Positions 45,792-46,884 of a stretch of 64,000 nucleotides of DNA are shown here, one piece after another. Each line of letters opens with the position of its first letter. The first letter of the stretch is position 1. The stretch is taken from NCBI GenBank assembly GCA_009773055.1, contig WOUW01000002.1, positions 22,518 to 86,517 of the forward strand, given 5' to 3'. This DNA is from Paracoccaceae bacterium (GTDB taxonomy: Bacteria; Pseudomonadota; Alphaproteobacteria; Rhodobacterales; Rhodobacteraceae). The position numbers and the translations under genes are program-made. The notes below the pieces were generated by a model. The model was not told the DNA's origin. It made no database searches and saw nothing but the letters and a program-made list of their open reading frames with translations.

Positions 45792-46176
45792 GGTGGAGCT
45801 CCACTTCAAGAGCCGGAGCAGTGATCAATGCGCCTATGTGCTGGAGGGCTTTACGGTCGTCCGGCATGTCATCGTCAAGGTTGGGTGGGCAGCGGGTCGG
45901 ATTGAGTCCCTTCCCCTGCACCCCATGGTGAGCACAGGTGAGCACGGTGAGGACGAAGAGTACGATGAGGACGATGAGGACTGCCGGAGACTCGTATCGT
46001 CTTGATTGCGTTGACAAAGGCGGGCGAGCGCAACGCATCCCGCGCAGTTTATCGCGTTATATAACTCAGTATCTCCGGTTGAGTATGTCATATACGCGAA
46101 TATACAGCGCCAGAAAAGTTACCTAAATCATTGAAAATAAAAGGGAACGCCCACATATTAGCAGTACAGGGCGAAC

Positions 46177-46250
46177 GGGGTCCAAACTCTTCGCTGGAAC
46201 GATGCTCCTGGCTTCCAAACCCAGGAGCATTTCGCTGGGGGTCCAAACTC
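46177..46250. repeat. 13-nt direct repeat GGGGTCCAAACTC (46177-46189, 46238-46250) flanking a 10-bp hairpin
   Basis: ATGCTCCTGG-CTTCCAAAC-CCAGGAGCAT at 46202-46230. Confidence 0.75.
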
Positions 46251-46276
46251 AAGCGATGACTGACGGTCAGTGACTA

Positions 46277-46327
46277 CCGGTCTCCAAAACCGGCTCGCTG
46301 GCGCGATATTCGCAGTATCGCGCCAGC
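46277..46327 (+). other. Structured leader: tRNA-Trp-type anticodon arm followed by 12-bp/7-nt hairpin
   Basis: CCGGT-CTCCAAA-ACCGG (46277-46293) then GCTGGCGCGATA-TTCGCAG-TATCGCGCCAGC (46297-46327). Confidence 0.6.
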
Positions 46328-46347
46328 ATCTATCTCAGGAGCATACG

Positions 46348-46884
46348 ATGGCAAGAAAGTCAAAGATCAAGTCGCAAATCGAAGCACTGCGGGCCGAGTT
46401 GTGGCCCAACATTGAGAAAATGCATGTCTGGAATCGTCAGACGTCAGATGGTTATTCGACCATGCCAAGGACTATATCTCAGTTGGGGGCGATCGGCGAC
46501 GCTCTATCCGGCAAGGGCAAGCCGGTCATGCAGACATACCTAGAACTATGGTGTCGTGTATATGACGACGGCTTTGTGAACTTGAGCCGCCAACAAGAGA
46601 TAGCCTTTGCGTCCGGCTTCTCTGGACAACGTGCGGTCGCTACGTGGCGTGAACGCATGAAGCGGCTTCACGAGCTAGGGTTCATCGACATAAAGGAAGG
46701 TCCATCTGGGCCTTACAGCTACGCTCTAATTATCAACCCATATTGGGTCGTTGCTTCGCACAAGAAAAATGGAACCAAGAACTTCCCGCAAGATAGGTAC
46801 GTAGCCCTGTTCGAACGAGCGTTGGAGATCGGCGCAACCGACCTTACTGAGTACAACAAGGAACTCGCAGAAGCTGTCCAGTAG
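46348..46884 (+). CDS. Orphan hypothetical protein, possible winged-helix/replication-associated
   Basis: RBS CAGGAG, AT-richer codons than neighbours, ELWCRVYDDGFVNLSRQQEIAFASGFSGQRAVATWRERMKRLHELGFIDI. Confidence 0.65.
   Translation: MARKSKIKSQIEALRAELWPNIEKMHVWNRQTSDGYSTMPRTISQLGAIGDALSGKGKPVMQTYLELWCRVYDDGFVNLSRQQEIAFASGFSGQRAVATWRERMKRLHELGFIDIKEGPSGPYSYALIINPYWVVASHKKNGTKNFPQDRYVALFERALEIGATDLTEYNKELAEAVQ

Follow-up and report, generated by a model that had tools for sequence, protein, structure and literature searches.

Hairpins that imitate a tRNA anticodon arm and are bound by the cognate synthetase have been described for the thrS operator of Escherichia coli and for yeast HisRS (PMC6542539). 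In the thrS operator, the mimic of the cognate arm lies upstream of the start codon and its anticodon loop gives the specificity; the HisRS self-binding mimic is an anticodon-like hairpin in the mRNA, and yeast ThrRS is reported to act on a foreign mRNA, RPC10, which does not encode the synthetase, through an ASL-like element (PMC9956033). Two further groups of RNAs are relevant for comparison: T-box leaders, which are leader RNAs tied to aminoacyl-tRNA biology, and sponge RNAs of the CsrB/RsmZ type, built of repeated hairpins with one conserved loop motif.

The DNA studied here, a 64,000-nt stretch of a Paracoccaceae bacterium contig (WOUW01000002.1; hereafter the window), contains, directly before the start codon of a mobile-element gene, a row of hairpins whose loops repeat the anticodon loop of tRNA-Trp. 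C34, C35 and A36 are the anticodon identity elements of bacterial TrpRS (PMC9976931), and we consider it about an even call that the tandem anticodon-arm mimics form a TrpRS-binding translational operator of the thrS kind, placed on a mobile-element gene. The array departs from the thrS operator in its anticodon (CCA, for Trp), its tandem copies, its freely varying stems and its synthetase, here a putative ligand; furthermore, the controlled gene would encode a mobile-element protein and not a synthetase, although single copies do occur at trpS. The two yeast cases are eukaryotic and were tested by experiment, whereas the array is bacterial and tandem and is interpreted from its sequence. T-box leaders bind the tRNA through a specifier codon, whereas the leader in the window imitates the tRNA, and CsrB and RsmZ are separate small RNAs with GGA loops, whereas the array abuts a gene and has UCCA loops. 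A CsrA/RsmA-binding leader or sponge would need ANGGA loops on the transcribed strand and was rejected, the loops on the coding strand here being UCCA. The open-access literature that we searched, which leaves subscription journals largely aside, describes no TrpRS-binding bacterial leader and no tandem anticodon mimics.

The hairpin is a structured RNA element for which Rfam has no model: its stem covaries, and the core of its loop, that of the tRNA-Trp anticodon, is invariant. It is found in a sporadic alphaproteobacterial mobile gene family and, independently, at trpS. If TrpRS does bind it, bacterial anticodon-mimic operators are not confined to thrS and occur as tandem arrays, and mobile elements have taken up such operators, coupling a gene to the tRNA state of the host.

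The hairpin array in the window

The word TCCAAA occurs at 46181, 46214, 46242 and 46283, with GGGGTCCAAACTC at 46177 and 46238 and ACCGGTCTCCAAAACCGG at 46276-46293. Over the whole window the word is no commoner than expected (14 occurrences vs. 22 expected); what is unusual is that four copies cluster in about 108 nt. The region 46140-46347 folds better than 200 of 200 dinucleotide shuffles, both as RNA (z -4.1) and as DNA (z -5.3), and all four TCCAAA segments are found inside hairpin loops.

All the hairpins are on the forward strand. Hairpin 1 (46171-46194) pairs GCGAA-c-GGG with CTC-TTCGC around the loop GTCCAAA; folded alone, 46170-46193 gives its GGG/CTC stem and 7-nt loop. Hairpin 2 (46201-46231) has an 11-bp stem with a C.C mismatch and the loop TTCCAAA, and is the top-scoring match within its own genome to the hairpin model R1 described below. 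Hairpin 3 (46232-46256) pairs TCGCT with AGCGA, has an internal loop and is capped by GTCCAAA. The first-pass annotation of this DNA had read the two copies of the 13-nt GGGGTCCAAACTC as direct repeats flanking what it counted as a third hairpin; both copies are present, but they lie in the loops of 46171-46194 and 46232-46256 and so are the tips of hairpins 1 and 3 themselves, not flanks. Hairpin 4 (46277-46293; CCGGT, loop CTCCAAA, ACCGG) comes closest to the tRNA: its 15-nt core CGGTCTCCAAAACCG is identical to the tRNA-Trp anticodon arm in a genome of the same genus (G1122), the arm of that tRNA reading ACGGTCTCCAAAACCGT.

The row ends in a 12-bp hairpin with a 7-nt loop, TTCGCAG, at 46297-46327, 20 nt before the ATG and followed by AGGAG (46337-46341), a probable Shine-Dalgarno sequence. 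The sequences quoted in the annotation, this hairpin included, are all present where it placed them; its comparison of the hairpin with an acceptor plus T-arm minihelix does not hold up, as the loop varies in the closest relatives (TTCGCAG here, TGTCCAG in L001, longer in L002) and most relatives have a UCCA hairpin at this position. The terminal hairpin thus sits where relatives have their last UCCA hairpin, and does so in L001 and L002 as well; in the window, as in L002, the hairpin closest to the ATG is without a UCCA loop, and the nearest such loop in the window is 60-66 nt before the ATG.

The leader contains no tRNA according to ARAGORN, no Rfam family at gathering score and no T-box match, and a full cloverleaf or acceptor stem is absent, the best Rfam tRNA match scoring 16.2 bits against a cut-off of 47; that no complete tRNA can be folded had been noted before and is borne out by both searches. 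We take 46171-46327 to be the 5' leader of the gene at 46348-46884, presumably transcribed together with it.

Hairpins and the protein family in related loci

We collected 38 loci with the gene and grouped them by the presence of hairpins; the 21 that have them are all alphaproteobacterial. Within 250 nt of the start codon, the 21 of 21 hairpin-bearing loci contain 43 TCCA-loop hairpins against a mean of 0.19 in shuffles, while the next-best loop among the 256 tetramers reaches 4 and the twelve one-base neighbours of TCCA amount to 4 in total. No TCCA hairpin was found on the antisense strand upstream of the homologs, and none in the 17 other loci. Because so many hairpins precede every one of these homologous loci, they are not due to chance: the hairpins are conserved and their structure is maintained by selection. 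By the strict count, a locus has 1-5 of them, to which weaker hairpins have to be added, numbers 1 and 3 in the window among them; as their number and spacing differ between loci, the covariance model R1 was built for the single hairpin and not for the whole leader.

When 37 hairpins, selected for their stems, are aligned on the loop, standard pairs make up 86% vs. 54% in shuffles, the covariation score is 0.77 vs. 0.20, and all eight pairs have changed on both sides; a slide of the alignment by one column abolishes the covariation signal. Given the selection for stems, the count of 43 hairpins is the unbiased measure and the covariation describes how the stems vary. The stems are unrelated in sequence between hairpins, differing both between and within loci, and yet they covary strongly. 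At the loop positions outside the search rule, position 32 is G in 33 and position 38 is A in 37 of the 43 hairpins, and position 37 is A, C or U. With an invariant loop on freely varying stems, the conserved part is thus U33-C34-C35-A36-N37-A38, the anticodon loop of tRNA-Trp; a position 32 that is mostly G and a position 37 that is often C are unlike tRNA-Trp itself. The search for hairpins and covariation in homologous loci had been set beforehand as the check, and its outcome favours the hairpins. It also speaks against the array being a degenerate series of tRNA-derived attachment sites, as had been considered: well-paired, varied and covarying stems are the opposite of decay, and the copies are not conserved in sequence. 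A scan of viral_contigs for paired GGTCCAMACC words gave 20 contigs, 0 of them with a hairpin array, and these were dismissed as chance matches.

The gene at 46348-46884 (forward strand) encodes a 178-aa protein of an unnamed mobile-element family, for which profile searches found no family worth naming in Pfam, NCBIfam, PHROGs, PADLOC or PDB. In the alignment, its N-terminus is basic and its C-terminal half has the conserved motif GFxGQRAVxTW..RM..L.ELGFI..K.GxSG. The C-terminal half reads as a probable winged helix and the protein as probably DNA-binding; AlphaFold on four sequences of the family gave a pLDDT of 41, too poor for use. A putative binding site lies further upstream, where six GA(G/A)NAC-like repeats with a 9-nt period follow a C-rich tract (45928-45983; at lag 9, 31 of 45 positions self-match, a figure that never exceeds 25 among 100 shuffles or 22 when other lags are taken). 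By eye, most family members, with or without hairpins, have GAGCAC-, GATAAC- or GATACC-like repeats with an 8-10-nt period that are coherent within the locus; variants such as GAGCACNNN, GATAACNN and GATACCNN behind a C-rich tract are seen, for example, in L002, L017, L034, L040 and L042. These repeats are likely the DNA-binding site of the protein and probably coevolve with it. The hairpins of the relatives are placed between the repeat array and the start codon.

This arrangement bears on an alternative that we hold to be unlikely, in which the 178-aa protein would repress its own translation by binding to the UCCA hairpins of the mRNA that encodes it, the trpS hairpins being unrelated or coincidental. 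Among the loci fetched with the gene, the hairpins occur only before the gene and track one protein clade, all 21 hairpin-bearing members falling into one group of 23 in the protein tree (support 94); autogenous control typically uses a tandem operator close to the start codon, and the N-terminus of the protein is basic. However, many family members are without hairpins, so the protein does not need them. One of these, L020, is 60% identical to the window protein; together with the long-branch L027, it completes the group of 23, and the two probably represent losses or misplacements. The protein more plausibly binds the DNA repeats common to most members, and autogenous control leaves both the trpS hairpins and the tRNA-Trp anticodon loop unexplained.

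The same hairpin at trpS and a similar one at rimP

The reading as a TrpRS-binding operator draws on the other places where the hairpin occurs. The single-hairpin covariance model was run on 41 genomes, mostly of the window's genus; individual matches are weak and their E-values rough, and the recurring orthologous groups among them are the start of trpS, identified by Pfam, and the leader of rimP. The window's own genome has the hairpin at its trpS start. Both genes were then counted class-wide with unbiased gene lists. Under a loop rule taken from the arrays, the loop NTCCANA occurs between -90 and +30 of trpS in 8 loci, ranking first of 256 cores (mean 0.49, next 4), whereas the control region from -440 to -100 has 1 locus against a mean of 1.3. 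With the own genome excluded, the hairpin is found in 7 of 135 trpS loci vs. 0.54 in shuffles, a number reached by 0 of 200 shuffles. Most trpS genes lack the hairpin, which is present in no more than about 6% of the loci. No clear enrichment was seen among the first 30 loci of the class or with broad settings, and TCCA falls to 16th of 256 when the trpS window is widened and A38 is no longer required. The signal thus weakens as the settings are relaxed, and the enrichment depends on how window and loop rule were chosen, which was done with knowledge of the arrays.

In the loci concerned (L088 in the own genome, L166, L145, L162, L223, L224, L255 and L275), trpS has the hairpin at its start codon or shortly upstream of it. 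The hairpin ends about 22 nt before the ATG in L162 and L275, placed as in the arrays, most of which leave about 18-34 nt between their last UCCA hairpin and the ATG; it abuts the ATG in L255 and lies within the first codons in the window's genus and in G211. Some alphaproteobacteria may therefore autoregulate TrpRS in this way.

Because the same hairpin also stands at some trpS starts, the row of hairpins in the window probably lets TrpRS control the gene behind it. Host TrpRS would bind the UCCA loops upstream of the ribosome-binding site and control translation, in the simplest form by repressing it; free tRNA-Trp would relieve the repression by competition, and several copies of the hairpin would raise avidity. 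Expression of the mobile-element DNA-binding protein would then follow the host's balance of TrpRS and tRNA-Trp, and alphaproteobacterial trpS mRNAs with a single hairpin would be autoregulated likewise. The first-pass annotation had already proposed a tRNA-like regulatory leader with a mimic of the tRNA-Trp anticodon arm, and the clade-wide UCCA core and the enrichment at trpS starts extend that idea.

The rimP leaders are a different matter. Those of several species in the genus of the window, and that of G056 from the same taxonomic family, contain a hairpin with the loop GTCCACA or GTCCAAA (L074, L075, L076, L080, L081, L089, L091, L092, L100, L163 and L165), which follows a promoter-like sequence, precedes a terminator-like stretch and shows at least one compensatory stem change; that of G056 has a different stem. 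By the same count as for trpS, 0 of 99 rimP loci have the hairpin class-wide, and rimP was rejected as a general carrier. The rimP hairpins are not obviously explained by TrpRS control and could have another ligand or mark a taxon-specific TrpRS target. They are also what speaks for a host RNA-binding factor other than TrpRS, reading UCCA hairpins in a small regulon of trpS, the rimP operon and the 46348 gene. We regard such a factor as quite improbable: its rimP branch is missing from the class at large, we know of no candidate, and TrpRS directly explains the choice of CCA. A further match to the hairpin model, GGTGGTGGGGTCCAACCCCACC, was seen in the rplA-rplJ spacer of a same-genus genome (L093), near rplJ.

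Gene neighbours and mobility

The downstream neighbours of several members of the gene family include NYN (L020), AbiJ (L022), PBECR2 (L040), HEPN/Abi_2 (L041) and AlbA-Schlafen (Burkholderia phage Musica) and, by eye, a PIN-like protein (L027) and an Abi-like protein (L039); nuclease- or defence-type genes stand directly 3' of the gene in L020, L022, L023, L027, L039, L040 and L041. From these neighbours, the gene family looks as if it regulated toxin or defence cassettes of modular make-up. The gene in the window has no such partner: within about 200 nt downstream, no ORF of at least 50 codons starts on the same strand.

For the proposed TrpRS operator, the nuclease-type genes beside relatives suggest a more specific guess, namely that the regulator gene senses the tRNA status of the host. 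Whenever tRNA-Trp is cleaved, depleted or altered, as in phage infection, the TrpRS set free would bind the array, or else TrpRS would leave it when tRNA-Trp is plentiful, switching the gene of the element. We offer this as a doubtful extension; if true, tRNA status would be sensed by an mRNA that imitates the tRNA and comes from a gene other than a synthetase gene.

The same neighbours have been weighed for a decoy, an RNA-antitoxin-like role in which the array would be set free as a small RNA and either titrate TrpRS or block an anticodon nuclease of tRNA-Trp. Repeated copies of one loop do resemble sponge RNAs, and nuclease-type genes (NYN, AbiJ, PBECR2, HEPN/Abi, AlbA) come after family members. 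Nevertheless, the chances of this account are slim: the spacing between the start codon and the hairpin next to it varies rather little, which would fit an element acting in cis; no toxin-like gene directly follows in many loci with hairpins, that of the window among them; and most toxin-linked members are without hairpins. The decoy RNA named in the annotation, taken as acting in trans, has found no support of its own.

The family is found in 164 plasmid records, a large share of which are enterobacterial plasmids of very small size, including ones with ColE1-type replicons, as well as in Burkholderia phage Musica, one viral contig and chromosomes; despite these records, it has no name. A role of the protein as a replication initiator is weakened because several of the carrier plasmids have other known replicons (ColE1-type, RepM, RepA). 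It is also highly improbable that the hairpins act as DNA, in single-stranded or cruciform form, at a site where mobile elements originate replication, transfer or recombine. In favour are the folding of the array as DNA, the plasmid habitat of the family and the origin-like direct repeats and AT-rich DNA upstream. Against it are the other replicons of the carrier plasmids and the hairpins themselves, which are always on the coding strand between repeat array and start codon, are missing from many members and have the loop of a tRNA anticodon.

In its own taxonomic family, the gene is sporadic, with 6 others among 397 genomes and scattered matches in the class and phylum; the two close relatives of the 178-aa protein are in Rhodobacteraceae MAGs. 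The 46348 locus is absent from 31 of 31 other genomes of its genus that were searched; it was therefore either acquired recently or is what rarely remains of a mobile element. It is flanked by uvrC and a proline-racemase/4-hydroxyproline-epimerase-like gene.
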